Below are positions 4,901-10,918 of a stretch of DNA of 20,217 nucleotides, one piece after another (the first letter of the stretch is position 1; each line of letters starts with the position of its first letter). The stretch comes from a virus: the IMG/VR virus record IMGVR_UViG_3300027851_000146, positions 1-20,217 of that record; one strand, given 5' to 3'. The notes below the pieces were generated by a model. It searched no databases and was not told the DNA's origin. It worked only from the letters and a program-made list of their open reading frames with translations. The translations under genes and the position numbers were made by a program.

Positions 4901-4908
4901 CCCGGGGC

Positions 4909-4925
4909 GTCCAACCCTATGCCGG
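4909..4925 (-). repeat. 17-bp direct repeat, copy A (intergenic motif)
   Basis: The plus strand reads GTCCAACCCTATGCCGG. A second copy at 5318-5334 differs by one base (GTCCAGCCCTATGCCGG). The two flank the lone plus-strand gene at 4996-5277. A third, 13-bp version (GTCGAGCCCTATG) lies at 10968-10980 upstream of another late gene. On the minus strand the core is CATAGGGYTSGAC. It could be a phage promoter or leader element, or the trace of an insertion. Confidence 0.55.
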
Positions 4926-4995: not shown

Positions 4996-5277
4996 ATGAG
5001 CGACGAGGGAAGCAAGACGGATCAACTGAGAGACTTCACATTTGGGATGCACTCGGCAATGTTTGCAGCCCTTGGCGCACTCATTCGGTCGCACCCGAAC
5101 CCGGGCGCTCTTGCTCAGATGATGGAGGTGTACCGCCAGAGGGAGCAGACGTACTTGGAGAACAAGGCCGTCCCTGAGCATGTGCTGGATTCATTTCATC
5201 AAGCATGGAAGCGCTTCGATCTGGAAATCCAGCAAGCTCAAAAAGACGATCAGCAACAGCCTCAATGTCCGGGGTAA
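4996..5277 (+). CDS. Hypothetical 93-aa protein, lone plus-strand moron candidate
   Basis: I do not recognise a named family. I chose the ATG at 4996 because AAGGGAG lies 8 nt upstream; the frame is open further upstream but without an SD. The product appears mostly helical. An N-terminal part with a hydrophobic patch (GMHSAMFAALGALI) leads to RSHPNPGALAQMMEVYRQRE and a charged, Gln-rich C-terminus ending QQQPQCPG. No signal peptide or clear membrane segment is seen. It is a single gene in opposite orientation to its neighbours, flanked by a 17-bp direct repeat, with its own possible promoter, which fits a moron. An antisense minus-strand frame covers the same DNA, but its C-terminus is low-complexity and it lacks an SD, so I treat it as a shadow. 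Confidence 0.7.
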   Translation: MSDEGSKTDQLRDFTFGMHSAMFAALGALIRSHPNPGALAQMMEVYRQREQTYLENKAVPEHVLDSFHQAWKRFDLEIQQAQKDDQQQPQCPG

Positions 5278-5313: not shown

Positions 5314-5317
5314 ACAC

Positions 5318-5334
5318 GTCCAGCCCTATGCCGG
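5318..5334 (-). repeat. 17-bp direct repeat, copy B
   Basis: GTCCAGCCCTATGCCGG matches copy A (4909-4925) at 16 of 17 positions. Together they bracket the plus-strand 93-aa gene. The motif lies between the 5290-5313 hairpin and the first pentamer array. Confidence 0.55.
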
Positions 5335-5390
5335 TGAACACACTACCAATCCACCTCGGTTGAAGAGGATCGGTGCTGTTTTCAGCCCAT

Positions 5391-5476
5391 GCCTTGCCGC
5401 GCCTGGCCCAGCCTCGCCCGGCCACACCCAGCCTGGCCGCGCCTTGCATCACCGCGCCGCTGATGCTGATCGCATC
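5391..5476. repeat. Pentamer array 1 and its hairpin
   Basis: Fourteen consecutive 5-nt steps occupy 5391-5460; eleven begin exactly with GCC and three vary (ACC, GCA, ACC). The hairpin GATGC/TGATC/GCATC follows at 5462-5476. A further inverted repeat, AGGATGC at 5477-5483 with GCATCCT at 5499-5505, encloses an inner CTTTT/AAAAG pair and separates this unit from the next. Confidence 0.8.
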
Positions 5477-5521
5477 AGGATGCGCTCTTTTGAAAAGTGC
5501 ATCCTGCTGTTGACAGCCCAC

Positions 5522-5593
5522 GCCTTAACACGCCTCAGCAAGCCTCGCCTGACCCCGCCCCGGCGGGCCACACCACTTAATGCTGATCGCATC
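5522..5593. repeat. Pentamer array 2 and its hairpin
   Basis: Eleven 5-nt steps at 5522-5576 are more degenerate than in array 1 (for example AACAC, AGCAA, ACCCC). The hairpin equivalent is AATGC/TGATC/GCATC at 5579-5593, with one stem mismatch. The loop TGATC is identical to that of unit 1. Confidence 0.7.
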
Positions 5594-5635
5594 CCCAAAC
5601 ACCGCACGCGATGCTTGAGGCTGTTTACAGCCCAT

Positions 5636-5715
5636 ACCTTTCCGTGCCCCGCCGCGCCGAGCCAGGCCTAGCCGTGCCATTCCCCGCCGCGCCGATCCAA
5701 TGATGCTTTCGCATC
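5636..5715. repeat. Pentamer array 3 and its hairpin
   Basis: Twelve 5-nt steps at 5636-5695 are mostly GCCNN. The hairpin GATGC/TTTC/GCATC lies at 5702-5715. On the minus strand its loop reads GAAA, a GNRA tetraloop, whereas units 1 and 2 have a 5-nt loop. The stem is kept while the loop changes, which suggests that the structure matters. Confidence 0.75.
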
Positions 5716-5747
5716 CCAAAGCCCTCCGGCAAGGGCTTGGAGTTGCG

Positions 5748-6209
5748 TCATCGGCCGATCTGCTTCCTGACTGTACCTCGAAGCGCCGAGAGCTTTGCAA
5801 TGGCATCGACGTTTTCCTGCCTCTGCTCACCGGTCAGTTCTTCGATGCGGACGTACCGGAGCCGTGTAGCAGTTGCCCTGAACGTCCGTCGCATGTCGCG
5901 CTCAAACTCCGCAGTCGCGACACGGGTCTGCTCTTCTGGCGCGCACCACCGATAGCCCTCTCCGCGCACAGACTGCAGCATGACTTGGTGGTCGCGCAAC
6001 AACTGGTCCTTGAACCCCTCGATGCTGGACAGCCACTCAAACTGCCGAGCCCGAAACTCGGCTGCACTCAGCTTTTCATCGTGCAGCACCATGGAGAAGT
6101 GATCGGCCAGCCATTCGTGCGAAACGGTGTCGCCATACTTGAACTCGTTGAGGAAGTCGCGCACGGCCTGCTTCCAGGCAGGAAACAGCTTCACGGATGA
6201 ATCAGCCAT
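5748..6209 (-). CDS. Phage protein with winged-helix-like segment (153 aa)
   Basis: I recall similar unnamed proteins in other proteobacterial phages, but no function. The ATG at 6209 begins 3 nt after the stop of the 190-aa gene, so the two are probably co-translated. Residues about 8-35 (AWKQAVRDFLNEFKYGDTVS) and the segment LRDHQVMLQSVRGEGYRW near 72-89 recall the helix-wing end of OmpR-type winged helices (VRGxGYR), so DNA binding is possible. The C-terminal third is helical and basic, with an EELTGEQRQENVDAIAKL helix. It is the last gene of the antirepressor operon before the pentamer arrays, and could bind them; that is only a suggestion. Confidence 0.8.
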   Translation of the reverse strand: MADSSVKLFPAWKQAVRDFLNEFKYGDTVSHEWLADHFSMVLHDEKLSAAEFRARQFEWLSSIEGFKDQLLRDHQVMLQSVRGEGYRWCAPEEQTRVATAEFERDMRRTFRATATRLRYVRIEELTGEQRQENVDAIAKLSALRGTVRKQIGR

Positions 6210-6212
6210 GGC

Positions 6213-6785
6213 TCAGGCTCCAAAAGAGACGGCGAACCGACCAAACCGCGGGCGGTATTCGCAGACCCCGATCAGCGCCCCAGCATCCGTGATCGCCTTC
6301 CTTGCCTCCTGCAGATCAAGCACATCGGGGTTCACGACAACGGTGAATTCTGCAGCCCACCGGAGAAACACTGGTCGATACCGCATGATTTTCGCCGTCC
6401 CGACCTTGACGCCTCGGCAGTCAACAAATGCCGGGTTTTCCCATAGATCGTCAGGCGTCTTTGGGCCGTCGTGCTTGATCTTGATGCGGTTTTCAAGCAC
6501 CAACGCACCGCGCCGCCAGTGCGTGCCGAGTTTTTGCAGCTTGGCCCCAGCCAGCAGGGTTGCATCGACGTTTTGCCCTGGAATGAAGAAGCCATCGGCG
6601 GCGTTCCAGTAGCACCCAGCGATGAACTCGCTGCGCGCAATGGCCAGATGGTCGTCATCTGTTTTTTTGCGCTTGCAGGTCAGCTCTTTGTGAAGCTTGG
6701 TCGCAGGGTGCAGCGGGTTTGCGAACGTGTCGGCGTGCATCATCAGCGGCGCCGTTCCTTCGATTTTGACTGAAATCTGTTCCAT
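6213..6785 (-). CDS. Conserved phage protein, possible RAMP/Cas7-like fold (190 aa)
   Basis: The start at 6785 is supported by GAGGA about 6 nt upstream; the frame is open further upstream but encodes Arg-rich shadow sequence overlapping the previous gene. The protein opens with a beta strand, ISVKIEGTAPLMMHAD, has a basic segment CKRKKTDDDHLAIAR near 43-57 and a central FFIPGQNVDATLLAGAK. It ends with a helix, then ALIGVCEYRPRFGRFAVSF. The opening strand with PLMMH and the closing Gly-rich loop before a strand recall RAMP/Cas7-type RNA-binding proteins. This is pattern resemblance only; no cas gene or CRISPR is present. I recall unnamed relatives in many phages. It lies 8 nt after the 64-aa gene and 3 nt before the 153-aa gene. 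Confidence 0.85.
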   Translation of the reverse strand: MEQISVKIEGTAPLMMHADTFANPLHPATKLHKELTCKRKKTDDDHLAIARSEFIAGCYWNAADGFFIPGQNVDATLLAGAKLQKLGTHWRRGALVLENRIKIKHDGPKTPDDLWENPAFVDCRGVKVGTAKIMRYRPVFLRWAAEFTVVVNPDVLDLQEARKAITDAGALIGVCEYRPRFGRFAVSFGA

Positions 6786-6990: not shown

Positions 6991-7458
6991 TCAGTTCGCT
7001 TCCGCAAGCTCGATCATGTCTCCGAGTACCCGGAAGTCCTCTGGCAGTTTTTTCAGGCAATCCTTGAACAGGCACTCGCGTTTTAAGGCGTTGTCCGCCA
7101 GTGAAACGACGGAAGATATTTGCCACCACGACTTGAAAAACTCATCTTCGCTGATGCTCTTGGATGCTTGCAAGCTCTGCAGTTCCTTGCGCGCCAGGTC
7201 AAGCGAGAAGTCCACATCGCTGTCGTTTTTCCCATCCCAGTCTTTGTCGGTACGCCGGATGTTGGCCATCATCTGCATCGTGTCCAGGATCACTGCGATG
7301 GCCAGATTTCGGGCTTGCTGGACGGTAGGAAGCGTGGCGTCTTGCCCATTGGTCCTTGAGGTGGTATCTTTCATGTTGAATCTCGCTCTGTTTGTGGGTT
7401 CATTCCAGAAGGCCTCGACGGTTGCACCCGTCGGGGCTTTCGCCTTTTTTGCGGTCAT
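6991..7458 (-). CDS. Hypothetical 155-aa protein downstream of the antirepressor
   Basis: The ATG at 7458 overlaps the antirepressor stop as ATGA and has AAAGGGGT about 9 nt upstream, so this start is preferred over the internal ATG at 7374. The N-terminal 30 residues are basic and Pro/Ala-rich (MTAKKAKAPTGATVEAF). The rest appears helical: a segment TVQQARNLAIAVILDTMQMM near 44-63 is followed by acidic and amphipathic helices ending KLPEDFRVLGDMIELAEAN. There is no recognisable domain, signal peptide or membrane span. Translational coupling implies that it is made together with the antirepressor. Confidence 0.75.
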   Translation of the reverse strand: MTAKKAKAPTGATVEAFWNEPTNRARFNMKDTTSRTNGQDATLPTVQQARNLAIAVILDTMQMMANIRRTDKDWDGKNDSDVDFSLDLARKELQSLQASKSISEDEFFKSWWQISSVVSLADNALKRECLFKDCLKKLPEDFRVLGDMIELAEAN

Positions 7459-8168
7459 TGCGTGACCCCTTTTGCCGGTTGCCTCGTCAGCAGTTCGCCA
7501 TGCCGGGCGACGAATCTGCGGATGAACTCAATGCCGCGGCCTGTCACCCGGGCAGCGTGGGCGATCCGAGCGCCTGCCGTGGTCGTTTCATACGTGTGGA
7601 TCGACTCAACAAAGTAGCCCTTCTGAACATACTCAGATGCTGGGGCGTTGTTGCCCAGGATCACGCCCTTTTCCTTGAGCGCCTTGTGAAGCTTCATCGG
7701 ACCGACACCCAGGGTCTTGGCAACGTCGCGAACCAGAGTGGTGCCATCGGCGTTCAGCAGTGCGTCGGCGTATTCAACCTTTGGCCGATCGGTTTCGATC
7801 TTCAGTTGCTGGGCCTCGATCTGCTCCTGCTGCTCTGCGGCCAGTCGAAGCGCTTGCGCAAAGGTCTGTGGCAGCGCAGGCGATTTGGCGGATTCAAGCT
7901 CTTGCCAGCGATCAACCAGACGCGCCGTGAACTCAGGGGAAAGCTGGGCGACGATGACGTAGCTGTCACGCTTGCCGACTCGGTACTCTGTTCCAGGCCG
8001 GCCGCCGGTCTCGGTCTTTTCCTCAATTTGAGGAGAAGTGACCACGCCGCGTTCGGCAAGGGTTTCAATGGTCCGCTTCACGTTGTCGTGACGCTTTTCC
8101 ACGAGGTCAGCCAACTCCCGGCTGGTCATGGTCAGGCTTGTGTTGGCCAGGGCGGTGATTGCGTTCAT
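7455..8168 (-). CDS. Rha-type regulatory protein with C-terminal KilAC/ANT domain (antirepressor)
   Basis: Residues 1-95 match the phage Rha domain: TMTSRELADLVEKRHDNVKR starting near 13, then the YVIVAQLSPEFTARLVDRWQELE block at 70-92. Residues about 100-130 are a Gln-rich coiled linker (AAEQQEQIEAQQLKIE). Residues about 130-225 match the KilAC/ANT antirepressor C-terminal domain, with VRDVAKTLGVGPMKLHKALK and GRGIEFIRRF. Such two-domain proteins are known phage antirepressors or regulators. The gene starts in an ATGA overlap with the Arc-like RHH gene and ends in another ATGA overlap with the 155-aa gene. By analogy with P22 arc-ant, expression would be held down by the RHH protein made from the same transcript. 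The P22 Ant protein itself has different domains, so this is functional rather than sequence equivalence. Confidence 0.9.
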   Translation of the reverse strand: MNAITALANTSLTMTSRELADLVEKRHDNVKRTIETLAERGVVTSPQIEEKTETGGRPGTEYRVGKRDSYVIVAQLSPEFTARLVDRWQELESAKSPALPQTFAQALRLAAEQQEQIEAQQLKIETDRPKVEYADALLNADGTTLVRDVAKTLGVGPMKLHKALKEKGVILGNNAPASEYVQKGYFVESIHTYETTTAGARIAHAARVTGRGIEFIRRFVARHGELLTRQPAKGVTQ

Positions 8169-8335
8169 GCTGCAGATCCTTGAACCCTCTCCTGCTCTTC
8201 CCGGCTTTTCTCAAGGCGATAGAGCACCTCGCCATTCAGGGTCCTGCGGTTATCGACTGCCTGGTGCTTGAGCCATCGTTTGAGGTCATCTGGCATCCGC
8301 ACCATGACGGCCGGTGATTCACGTCCTACGTTCAT
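8165..8335 (-). CDS. Arc-like ribbon-helix-helix repressor (56 aa)
   Basis: This small gene reads MNVGRESPAVMVRMPDDLKR and continues through a TLNGEVLYRLEKS helix to end VQGSAA. An ideal SD (AAGGAG) lies 6 nt before the ATG. It aligns well with P22 Arc: the beta strand PAVMVRMP corresponds to Arc PQFNLRWP, with the Arg in the same place, and TLNGEVLYRLEKS to Arc SVNSEIYQRVMES. Ala and Met replace two of Arc's base-contacting residues, so the operator would differ. As an RHH protein it should bind DNA as a dimer or pair of dimers. It is the first gene of the operon, overlaps the antirepressor start (ATGA) and diverges from the second RHH gene at 8433. Confidence 0.9.
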   Translation of the reverse strand: MNVGRESPAVMVRMPDDLKRWLKHQAVDNRRTLNGEVLYRLEKSREEQERVQGSAA

Positions 8336-8349
8336 TTGCATCTCCTTGC

Positions 8350-8402
8350 ATTTCTATGCACGGTCTGTGCACGGATGCATTCTAAACACGGTGCATAGAA
8401 AT
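8350..8402. promoter_or_regulatory. Operator region between the two divergent RHH genes
   Basis: ATTTCTATGCAC at 8350-8361 is the perfect inverse of GTGCATAGAAAT at 8391-8402 (12 of 12 bases, 29 bp apart). Between them TGCACGG occurs at 8357-8363 and again at 8368-8374, spaced 11 bp (one helical turn), and a third TCTA lies at 8381-8384. The arms contain TAGA, the core of the known Arc half-site in P22. This is the expected place for both RHH proteins to bind. Confidence 0.6.
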
Positions 8403-8408
8403 GTGCAA
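8379..8408 (-). promoter_or_regulatory. Candidate promoter of the Arc-like/antirepressor operon
   Basis: On the minus strand TTGCAC (8403-8408) is followed after 18 bp by TAGAAT (8379-8384), which would start RNA about 35 nt before the ATG at 8335. The right arm of the inverted repeat lies in the spacer, so a bound repressor would block the promoter. A clear promoter for the plus-strand gene was not found. Confidence 0.4.
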
Positions 8409-8432
8409 TCTTTTTCGTGGCACAGTGCGTAG

Positions 8433-8717
8433 ATGGCACGAACTGACCCAACGATATACATGCGGATCCCGCAATGGCTAAAGGACAAGCTTGATGCTGC
8501 CGCCGAGTCAAACCACAACTCTTTGACGGCGGAAGTTGTTCGGCGACTCTCGGAGAGCTTTGAATCACCGAGGCTCGGTTTTGGCCCTGGAAGTGTTGGC
8601 GATCAACTTGAGAAAGCTCGCATCGAAGCGATTGAACGGCTTGAGGCCGCTGCGCCAGCGATTGCTGATCGCGTGTTGCAGCTAATCAATGAGAAGCTGA
8701 AGGCTGGCGAGAAGTGA
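8433..8717 (+). CDS. Mnt-like ribbon-helix-helix repressor (94 aa)
   Basis: The N-terminus MARTDPTIYMRIPQWLKDKL follows P22 Mnt (MARDDPHFNFRMPMEVREKL) closely, including MARxDP, the beta strand with Arg and the Pro that caps it. The second helix, SLTAEVVRRLSESFESP, matches Mnt SMNSELLQIVQDALSKP. A helical C-terminal extension (about residues 57-94, GDQLEKARIEAIERL onwards) corresponds to the tetramerising coiled coil of Mnt and is slightly longer. Mnt in P22 represses the arc-ant promoter in the prophage. There is no good SD before the ATG at 8433, so translation may be weak or from a very short leader. It diverges from the Arc-like gene across 97 bp. Confidence 0.9.
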   Translation: MARTDPTIYMRIPQWLKDKLDAAAESNHNSLTAEVVRRLSESFESPRLGFGPGSVGDQLEKARIEAIERLEAAAPAIADRVLQLINEKLKAGEK

Positions 8718-8756: not shown

Positions 8757-9125
8757 ATGGATCTGACTCAAGAGAAAACCACGCCGATGGCGATCACGGT
8801 TGCCAGGCATGTCGTTGGTATGGCGGTCGTGGCGCTAGGGAACCCGATGATCTACAGCGACCCGAGCCCGCTATTTGTCTGGCTCACGGGCTGGGTGATG
8901 GCGCTGCTGGTCGCATCCGTAGTATTCGGCGTCTATGCGCTGCTCTTCACATCGCGAGCAAAGTTCGTGTGGCCTCGCATGGTCTTGGCCATGGCGTGGG
9001 TCATCGTTGTGCTGTACGCCCTGGGAGGGTGGTCTGAATACAACCATACAGACCAAGAGCCACCCACCAAGAACCAAGACTTTGATCCCGACTTCTGGAA
9101 AAAAGGCGGGACCCCGGTCAACTAG
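8757..9125 (+). CDS. Small membrane protein, SieA-position moron (122 aa)
   Basis: The start at 8757 has AAGGGG 6 nt upstream. Two clear membrane spans are visible, about residues 39-65 (PLFVWLTGWVMALLVASVVF onward) and about 74-91 (MVLAMAWVIVVLYALGGW), with a weaker hydrophobic stretch at about 14-30. The C-terminal 30 residues are polar and charged (NHTDQEPPTKNQDFDPDFWK). I recognise no family. The orientation, own promoter and place beside the Mnt-like gene recall P22 sieA, a prophage-expressed inner-membrane exclusion protein, but SieA is longer (about 160 aa) and I see no sequence match. The stop overlaps the convergent 598-aa gene within CTAG. Confidence 0.8.
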   Translation: MDLTQEKTTPMAITVARHVVGMAVVALGNPMIYSDPSPLFVWLTGWVMALLVASVVFGVYALLFTSRAKFVWPRMVLAMAWVIVVLYALGGWSEYNHTDQEPPTKNQDFDPDFWKKGGTPVN

Positions 9126-10918
9126 TTCTTGATGTACGTCTTGCCATCAGGCCCGACATAGCGAGCTCCTTTCGGCATCGCGTCGAATGCAGCCTTCCCG
9201 GCCGCGTCAGGCGTTATCTTCGCGGTGCCTTGCGCTTGAACCTGCTGCCCCTGAACAGGCTGCCCAGTGCGTTTGTTCACGATGATGTCAGGGCTCTTTG
9301 TGACCATTCCGGTGACTGGATCAACGCTTTGACCGCTGGAAACTGCCATGTACTCGTCGCCCTTGACGTTCCCTGACAAGGCATTTAGCTTCGTGACGAT
9401 TGCGGATTGCTCTTCTGGAGTACGGGCGTTCAAGTATGCGGCGCGCAATTCGGCGATCTGCTTGGCGGATTTGAGCTCCACGCCAGCGGCATCGCGCTTG
9501 ACGCTGTTCGTCGCCGAGTTGTCGGCCAGCTCCTGCGCTTTCAGGTCGCGATTTGCGGCTGAGTCACCCATGCGCGCGGCCAACTCCTGCGACTTGAATC
9601 CACGGTCTGCTGCTGATTCGGTAGCGGACTGCGCCAGTCGATCACGCTCGATCTGCTGGCCTGGTGCGTCGGCCTGCTGCTGCAAGAAGCCTTGGAGCGC
9701 CAGTTTTGAGCCGGGTTTTCCCTGCTGCACATCCATCGACAGGTTGCGCTGCTGAATGCGGTTGGAGTTCGCCAAGCCGAAACCATAGCCCTGCCCGGTG
9801 TCGGGTGGCGTGAGGTTCTGAGACGCCACAGGCGCTGGTGATTGAACCTGCGGCGTGAACCCGCGGGCGGCGGATCGCTGCGCCAGGCTGTCGGCCGCTG
9901 CCATGTTCTGCTCAGACACGGAGCTGCGCGGCTTGAACCCGGCGGGTCCGCTGTAGCTCACATCGCCGGACACGTTATCACCGCTGAACTCCATCACGCC
10001 ATTTGGCTGGCGTCGCACGTTCACATTGCCAGAGGTCTGCATGTTCGCCTGGGCGGCCGGCGTGCCGGGTTGTTCTGGTGCGCCGGATGGCGTCACGGCC
10101 GTGGCTGCAGGGGCAACTGGTGGCGCCTTGGCGACTGGACTCACGACGGGCGGCGTCGCGGCCTGAGCCTCACCACCGAAGCCGAGAAACTGCTTCGCGG
10201 CGTCCATCGCGCCCGGAACCACGGCCCGAACTGCTCCGCCGACCAGATCGTCAGCCACGGCTGGCCCATACGCCGTCGCGGCGCGTGCAGCCTCGCCCAG
10301 CGCGGCGCCATACCGGCCTTGCCCGGCCAGATCGCCGATAGCCTTTCCTGATTCGTTGAACACCGCCCGAGTGCCCGGCATGAAGCCTGGACCCGATGGC
10401 GTTGGCGACGGCTTCACGGCCTGCGGATTGATGAACCCGCGGCCACCGCCTGCGGCTTGGTCGCCAACAAGCGGCGCCGGCTGTGGCCGCGGCGGCATGC
10501 CGGCGCTGTACATCTTGGTCATGTCGCGCTGCACCTCGGGCTGCAGCGTTGGCATGAACGGCTTGCGCTTTTCATCGTCCAGCGGCCCGCCATTGACAAA
10601 AAAGAACTTCTGCCCTTCTGCGCCCTGCTCGGGTACTGGCGTGTGCGTGGCGTTCTTCATGGCCTCCAGCGCCTGAAACCCGCCCGCGGCCTGCACCTGC
10701 TGCGGGTTCAGCACCGCCTCGCCAGCGCTCAACTGCGCCGCGCGCATGCCGGGCTTGAACCCAGTCGCCTGCACAGTGTCTGCGGGAAGAACGAACCCGT
10801 CTCGCGGCACCATGGCCGGAACGCTATCGGACGTGCCGCTTCCTGGCCCCTTGACGATTCCGCCATTGGCGTAGTTCTTCGGCTGAGTCTTGTGTTTCTG
10901 CGGGTGAAAGCCTTGCAT
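9122..10918 (-). CDS. Virion-associated protein with GPGSGTSDS motif (598 aa)
   Basis: AGGAG lies about 7 nt before the ATG at 10918. Residues about 16-50 carry YANGGIVKGPGSGTSDSVPA and VPRDGFVLPADTV, a motif common in phage virion proteins and at tape-measure C-termini. Residues about 70-380 are Ala/Pro/Gly-rich and partly disordered, with a hydrophobic Ala-rich part near 200-250. Residues about 420-510 are a helical, charged region with repeated steps of the form SAxxRxxKxQELA. The C-terminus ends YVGPDGKTYIKN. No enzyme motif is visible. The place after the tail genes and before the immI-like locus matches that of P22 ejection protein gene 16, so an ejected or internal virion protein is likely, by position only. 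Confidence 0.8.
   Translation of the reverse strand: MQGFHPQKHKTQPKNYANGGIVKGPGSGTSDSVPAMVPRDGFVLPADTVQATGFKPGMRAAQLSAGEAVLNPQQVQAAGGFQALEAMKNATHTPVPEQGAEGQKFFFVNGGPLDDEKRKPFMPTLQPEVQRDMTKMYSAGMPPRPQPAPLVGDQAAGGGRGFINPQAVKPSPTPSGPGFMPGTRAVFNESGKAIGDLAGQGRYGAALGEAARAATAYGPAVADDLVGGAVRAVVPGAMDAAKQFLGFGGEAQAATPPVVSPVAKAPPVAPAATAVTPSGAPEQPGTPAAQANMQTSGNVNVRRQPNGVMEFSGDNVSGDVSYSGPAGFKPRSSVSEQNMAAADSLAQRSAARGFTPQVQSPAPVASQNLTPPDTGQGYGFGLANSNRIQQRNLSMDVQQGKPGSKLALQGFLQQQADAPGQQIERDRLAQSATESAADRGFKSQELAARMGDSAANRDLKAQELADNSATNSVKRDAAGVELKSAKQIAELRAAYLNARTPEEQSAIVTKLNALSGNVKGDEYMAVSSGQSVDPVTGMVTKSPDIIVNKRTGQPVQGQQVQAQGTAKITPDAAGKAAFDAMPKGARYVGPDGKTYIKN

Follow-up and report, generated by a model that had tools for sequence, protein, structure and literature searches.

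The window (the whole 20,217-nucleotide stretch of viral DNA that was analysed) carries on its minus strand a gene for a small RAMP-fold protein, an adjoining accessory gene and, directly 3′ of the two genes, an array of 5-nt repeats. The genes are called vipr and vap here, with vipr upstream of vap, and the repeat units vrRNAs, after a 2026 preprint (PMC13142463) that describes VIPR loci as made up of Vipr, vap, and vrRNAs in which GGY and NN alternate. The array reads (GGYNN)n in three units of 12–13, 11, and 14 pentamers, each ending (3′) in GGGCTGNNAACAGC and a covarying hairpin, and its minus-strand order is a leader hairpin followed by three successions of GATGC hairpin, guide, and tail. 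The features are listed below with their coordinates in the window.

6213–6785, minus strand: vipr, encoding a 190-aa RAMP-fold protein (PHROG_4652; PDB 36pp match, AlphaFold2 model, and Foldseek)
6669–6704, minus strand: site in vipr matched by the vrRNA of another phage (locus L031) at 9/12 NN
5748–6209, minus strand: vap accessory gene, 153 aa (PHROG_5926), which adjoins vipr in nearly all related loci
5716–5740, minus strand: leader hairpin before guide 1, tail-like but without the GGGCTG border (an upstream hairpin of at least 7 effective pairs occurs in 33/42 loci)
5702–5715, minus strand: GATGC-GAAA-GCATC hairpin 5′ of guide 1
5634–5698, minus strand: putative vrRNA1 guide tract; NN = (TC) GC GG AT AC TA CT TC GC GG AC AA AT
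5594–5633, minus strand: vrRNA1 3′ tail, a GGGCTGTAAACAGC hairpin followed by a second hairpin (covarying structure)
5579–5593, minus strand: GATGC-GATCA-GCATT hairpin 5′ of guide 2
5520–5574, minus strand: putative vrRNA2 guide tract, 11 pentamers; NN = GT CC GG GG CA GA TT GA GT AA GT
5477–5519, minus strand: vrRNA2 3′ tail (covarying structure)
5462–5476, minus strand: GATGC-GATCA-GCATC hairpin 5′ of guide 3
5389–5458, minus strand: putative vrRNA3 guide tract, 14 pentamers; NN = GC GA AA GC CA TG GT CG GA TG CA GC AA AT
5345–5388, minus strand: vrRNA3 3′ tail (covarying structure)
10779–10817, plus strand: best vrRNA1 match inside the window (7/13 NN), lying in antisense orientation at the motif MVPRDGFVLPAD of the phage's own gene

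The guide 1 tract consists of 12 strict pentamers and GGATC. The border GCTGTTNNCAGCCCAYRCC is present exactly three times in the window (at 5375, 5506, and 5620), where 0.04 occurrences would be expected by chance even with two mismatches; 300 first-order Markov resamplings of the window produced no run of GGY pentamers that scored comparably. The original prediction, made from the letters of the window, had described three GGCNN units of 14, 11, and 12 steps at this position, which agrees with the pentamers found, and had noticed a stem that is kept while its loop changes; the GATGC/GCATC stem is indeed constant with either a GATCA or a GAAA loop, in the window as well as in its relatives. 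Both of the border structures that it described are also real, but their polarity was reversed. Because the opposite strand had been read, the start and end of the units were exchanged: on the functional minus strand, the palindrome taken for the start belongs to the 3′ tail and the hairpin taken for the end lies at the 5′ end. Beside the array, an 18-nt direct repeat, CGTCCARCCCTATGCCGG, occurs at 4908–4925 and 5317–5334 and encloses a 93-aa plus-strand ORF (4996–5277) without a family match; the flanked stretch may represent a small cassette inserted between the large structural gene and the array.

The protein encoded by vipr matches the PDB entry 36pp (“SUSP1 Vipr protein”) with E = 3e-45, and with E 1e-58 in a profile search. 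Its AlphaFold2 model has a pLDDT of 96, and the top Foldseek matches of this model are Csm3/Cas7-type CRISPR RAMPs (E 5e-5, probability 1.00); the window thus encodes a small Vipr-lineage protein with a RAMP fold. The neighbouring vap is homologous to the gene that follows vipr in the felixounavirus Alf5 (hhalign 98.6%, E 6e-16), whose Vipr is 40% identical to that of the window and whose vipr–vap pair is flanked on both sides by GGY pentamer tracts. No significant fold match was found for vap, for which the winged-helix-like matches were weak; its product is probably DNA-binding. A Vipr 39.9% identical to the query, as in the E. coli felixounaviruses, is also encoded in the record of Staphylococcus phage SA1 (GU169904, 91703–92266), and mislabelling or contamination of that record is possible. 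Searches of Pfam, NCBIfam, and PADLOC returned no family for vipr or vap, the array had no match in Rfam, and BLAST of the array yielded just a weak 73-base match against phages, to Mycobacterium phage Donkeykong, and none against plasmids. The statement in the original prediction that nothing in standard feature lists explains the pattern thus holds for these four resources, although the pattern is explained by PMC13142463. The Donkeykong region similar to the array (NC_051648, 37072–37148) is covered by the annotation of a hypothetical protein, gp48, and is possibly a vrRNA annotated as a gene.

The exact border pattern was found in 52 stretches of IMG/VR, about 40 of which have the same anatomy of hairpin, GCTGTTNNCAGC, pentamers, and often a GATGC-type hairpin, while the remainder are apparently unrelated sequences. 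A stricter parser applied to all collected loci identified 77 units (vrRNAs) in 42 loci, mostly of 8–17 pentamers, and the vipr–vap pair (PHROG_4652 and PHROG_5926) is located directly 5′ of the array in nearly every genuine locus with enough flank. A search by pentamers with attention to their neighbours, as had been proposed originally, was carried out in IMG/VR with (GCCNN)8 and recovered a Vipr homologue in 84/120 stretches compared with 0/31 control stretches (72 of the 120 with a profile built without those stretches). In 82 of the 84 Vipr-carrying stretches, the array is in the GGC sense on the vipr strand, at a median distance of 62 bp. The other 36 contigs (among L054–L173) have at least eight GCCNN pentamers and no Vipr homologue was found in them; such contigs may be truncated, may belong to other VIPR types or to other systems, or may be chance finds. 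The position of the array varies within the clade, since four vrRNAs of locus L046 (3102–3558 and 3741–4307) are located upstream of vipr and not downstream.

Among annotated phages, Pseudomonas phage Medea1, which has siphovirus-type tail genes, carries the element unlabelled. Its vipr–vap pair and array are located among tail genes beside an antirepressor and an Arc-like gene, as in the window (antirepressor [Rha/KilAC] and Arc-like genes at 7455–8717 in the window and at 9161–10229 in Medea1, L174). The recurrence of this gene set in the podovirus-like window and the siphovirus-like Medea1 looks like that of a mobile cassette.

Across 68 distinct units, the entropy of the three GGY positions is 0.27, 1.05, and 1.19 bits, and that of the NN positions 1.92 and 1.98 bits. 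The covariation check that had been suggested for the hairpins was performed on 58 tails, in which 12/17 pairs have changed on both sides and 95.8% of cells are paired; double-change cells number 198, versus 61.5 in shuffles and 33–57 in slid versions. Tail helix 1 (GCTG/CAGC) is nearly invariant and therefore contributes no covariation evidence. Many G-U pairs are among those that covary in the hairpin on one strand, a sign of RNA. The hairpins upstream of the first guide in the 33 loci lack the GGGCTG border and most resemble the tail hairpin; the mean effective stem is 9.3 versus 5.5 in shuffles. An array with n guides therefore commonly has n+1 hairpins as its boundaries, a layout that may reflect processing on both sides and that finds no mention in the main text of PMC13142463.

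Taken with the neighbouring genes, the region very probably holds the guide RNAs of a VIPR system resembling type II, whose components (vipr, vap, and three vrRNAs) are all encoded on the minus strand. Of the explanations offered originally, a regulatory RNA or ncRNA is the one that came through, the repeats being the guide RNAs of this system. The gene content, the RAMP fold, the GGY/NN make-up, and the covarying tail are established for the window or its relatives, as is, in the relatives, a 1-base-skip match to genes of other phages. Expression of the RNAs, formation of a complex, and silencing by the system of this phage would follow by analogy with the SUSP1 and P. fulva systems, for which PMC13142463 reports that vrRNAs are expressed and co-purify with Vipr, that reporters are silenced, and that phages are defended against; it also reports that the NN letters designate double-stranded DNA read with a skip of 1 nt. 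In the mechanism proposed, a vrRNA would be a run of GGY-NN pentamers capped by a structured 3′ tail, and Vipr, as an ancestral Cas7-like RAMP, would coat the pentamers, with GGY as the protein footprint and each NN presented to DNA. The target would be double-stranded DNA with the same dinucleotides one skipped base apart, the skipped base usually being the codon wobble base, and binding of Vipr–vrRNA would block transcription of genes of competing phages. The 5-nt period would reflect a RAMP protein on the RNA that leaves two bases readable at each step.

Like the type II VIPR systems of phage SUSP1 and a Pseudomonas fulva prophage (PMC13142463), the window has Vipr and vap homologues, a phage-encoded downstream vrRNA array of GGY/NN repeats with hypervariable NN (9–16 repeats in type II; 11, 12–13, and 14 in the window), and a conserved, structured 3′ tail, for which a pseudoknot is described in the SUSP1 clade. 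A further likeness is found in related loci, whose guides have 1-base-skip targets in other phages, vipr genes among them. The window differs from type II systems in that its phage, on an IMG/VR contig of 20 kb, has structural genes resembling those of podoviruses, in the extra leader hairpin before the array (n+1 hairpins) with no upstream vrRNA seen, and in that the probable vrRNA1 target is homologous to the phage's own gene. Class 1 CRISPR-Cas (Cas7/Csm3 with crRNA) shares the RAMP fold, a periodic protein footprint on the guide RNA, and a structured guide cap; however, the window has a single RAMP and a period of 5 nt instead of 6 nt, and VIPR pairing, unlike that of class 1 CRISPR-Cas, is described in PMC13142463 as noncontiguous. 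No CRISPR repeats or spacers were found in the array, which consists of hairpins and pentamer tracts, and the searches of neighbouring proteins revealed no cas genes, including those for adaptation.

The 1-base-skip code was examined by scanning 62 distinct guides against 3.1 Mb (both strands together) of the collected loci with arrays masked. With a skip of one base, 8/62 vrRNAs match at least 80% of their NN and 11 at least 75%, compared with 0 guides at 80% and 0–3 at 75% for skips of 0, 2, 3, 4, and 5. Reversed and complemented guides gave 0 at 80%, and ten order shuffles gave 0–3 (mostly 0) at 80% and 0–5 at 75%. The independent number of matching guides is approximately six, as three of the eight are near-identical and come from related loci. 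Mismatches concentrate at the tail-proximal end. The matched genes include the host-specificity protein J and assembly protein L of Medea1, a tape-measure gene (L007), and the vipr genes of other phages, which are matched by guides of L031, L040, and L008 (7/9 NN for L008).

A structured regulatory RNA or a 3′ UTR of the vipr–vap transcript, with no guide function and with pentamers that bind Vipr for autoregulation or storage, would suit an array that in most related loci follows vap immediately on the 3′ side, where co-transcription is possible, but is very unlikely in view of NN letters that are near-maximally variable while GGY is kept, and of NN strings that fit genes of other phages under a 1-base skip only. 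The inverted repeats, the regular spacing, and a unit number that differs between phages could likewise belong to a DNA element that a protein reads every 5 bp, namely a site of replication, packaging, or recombination. The covariation of the hairpins on one strand with many G-U pairs, the strand fixed relative to vipr in 82/84 contigs, and NN content that differs phage by phage make such an element extremely improbable; among the original suggestions, neither a replication or packaging site nor a recombination junction between modules is supported, nor is a DNA scaffold at half-turn spacing, the period being explained by RAMP-bound RNA.

Mechanical ORFs cross the array region, yet a degenerate coding sequence or low-complexity expansion deserves almost no credence beside a 5-nt period with two conserved borders in 42 loci, covarying hairpins, and guides that match other genes under a 1-base skip. 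The two outcomes that the original prediction had named as contrary to it were a loss of the period in relatives, which did not occur among the 77 units, and degenerate coding in a relative, in place of which covarying hairpins were found. The 5-nt period is also known from TRAP with (G/U)AG-repeat RNA, in which trinucleotide repeats spaced by 5 nt are recognised by a multimeric protein. A TRAP-like reading was dropped after the RAMP match of the neighbouring protein; in the window, moreover, the NN letters would carry target information.

For the three guides of the window-encoded VIPR system, IMG/VR was scanned with exact NN patterns. Scans with 9 NN gave 0, 0, and 1 match, and the single match (L177) does not extend and was taken as chance. 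Scans with 8 NN gave 13, 12, and 6 matches, with clear extension for vrRNA1 only; the 13 matches are approximately the chance expectation estimated for a collection of the size of IMG/VR. Most of the vrRNA1 matches encode [DE]SYVIPA on the opposite strand, with the skip at the wobble base, and the best (L182) reaches 11/13 NN. The L182 protein and the window protein at 9122–10918 both match PHROG_11341 and align at 43% across a stretch of 37 residues with the motif at its centre (E 1e-6); the own-gene site at 10779–10817 is in register and homologous to the probable target motif in other phages. These sequence comparisons suggest that guide 1 is probably aimed at an ADSYVIPAD-motif homologue in competing phages, sparing the phage's own diverged copy, a target rated probable, given that the count of matching letters could by itself be due to chance. 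For the window itself, the evidence of 1-nt-skip targeting of competitors consists of this probable vrRNA1 target. A protein search with the L182 motif returned no annotated phage and two weak bacterial matches. No convincing target was found for vrRNA2 or vrRNA3 in the 8- and 9-NN exact IMG/VR scans or in the window, and vrRNA1 and vrRNA3 had no match with up to three mismatches in 401 Comamonadaceae genomes. The own-window matches of vrRNA2 (from 11336, plus strand) and vrRNA3 (from 10040, minus strand) cover half to 7/11 NN out of codon register and were taken as chance. A more specific and tentative reading is that the layout of the array is that of a CRISPR array, its n guides lying between n+1 hairpins at each of which processing would occur. 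Guide 1 might then silence, in competitors, the homologue of a structural-type gene that the phage itself carries, and divergence of the phage's own copy (7/13 versus 11/13 NN) would prevent self-targeting.

The results indicate that VIPR systems can be found from raw pentamer periodicity alone, and the analysis tests the noncontiguous 1-base-skip code independently and by computation. It also yields a clearly delimited collection of 77 guides and, with it, concrete target predictions. Among the predicted targets are vipr genes of rivals, which makes RNA-guided silencing as a weapon between phages directly testable.
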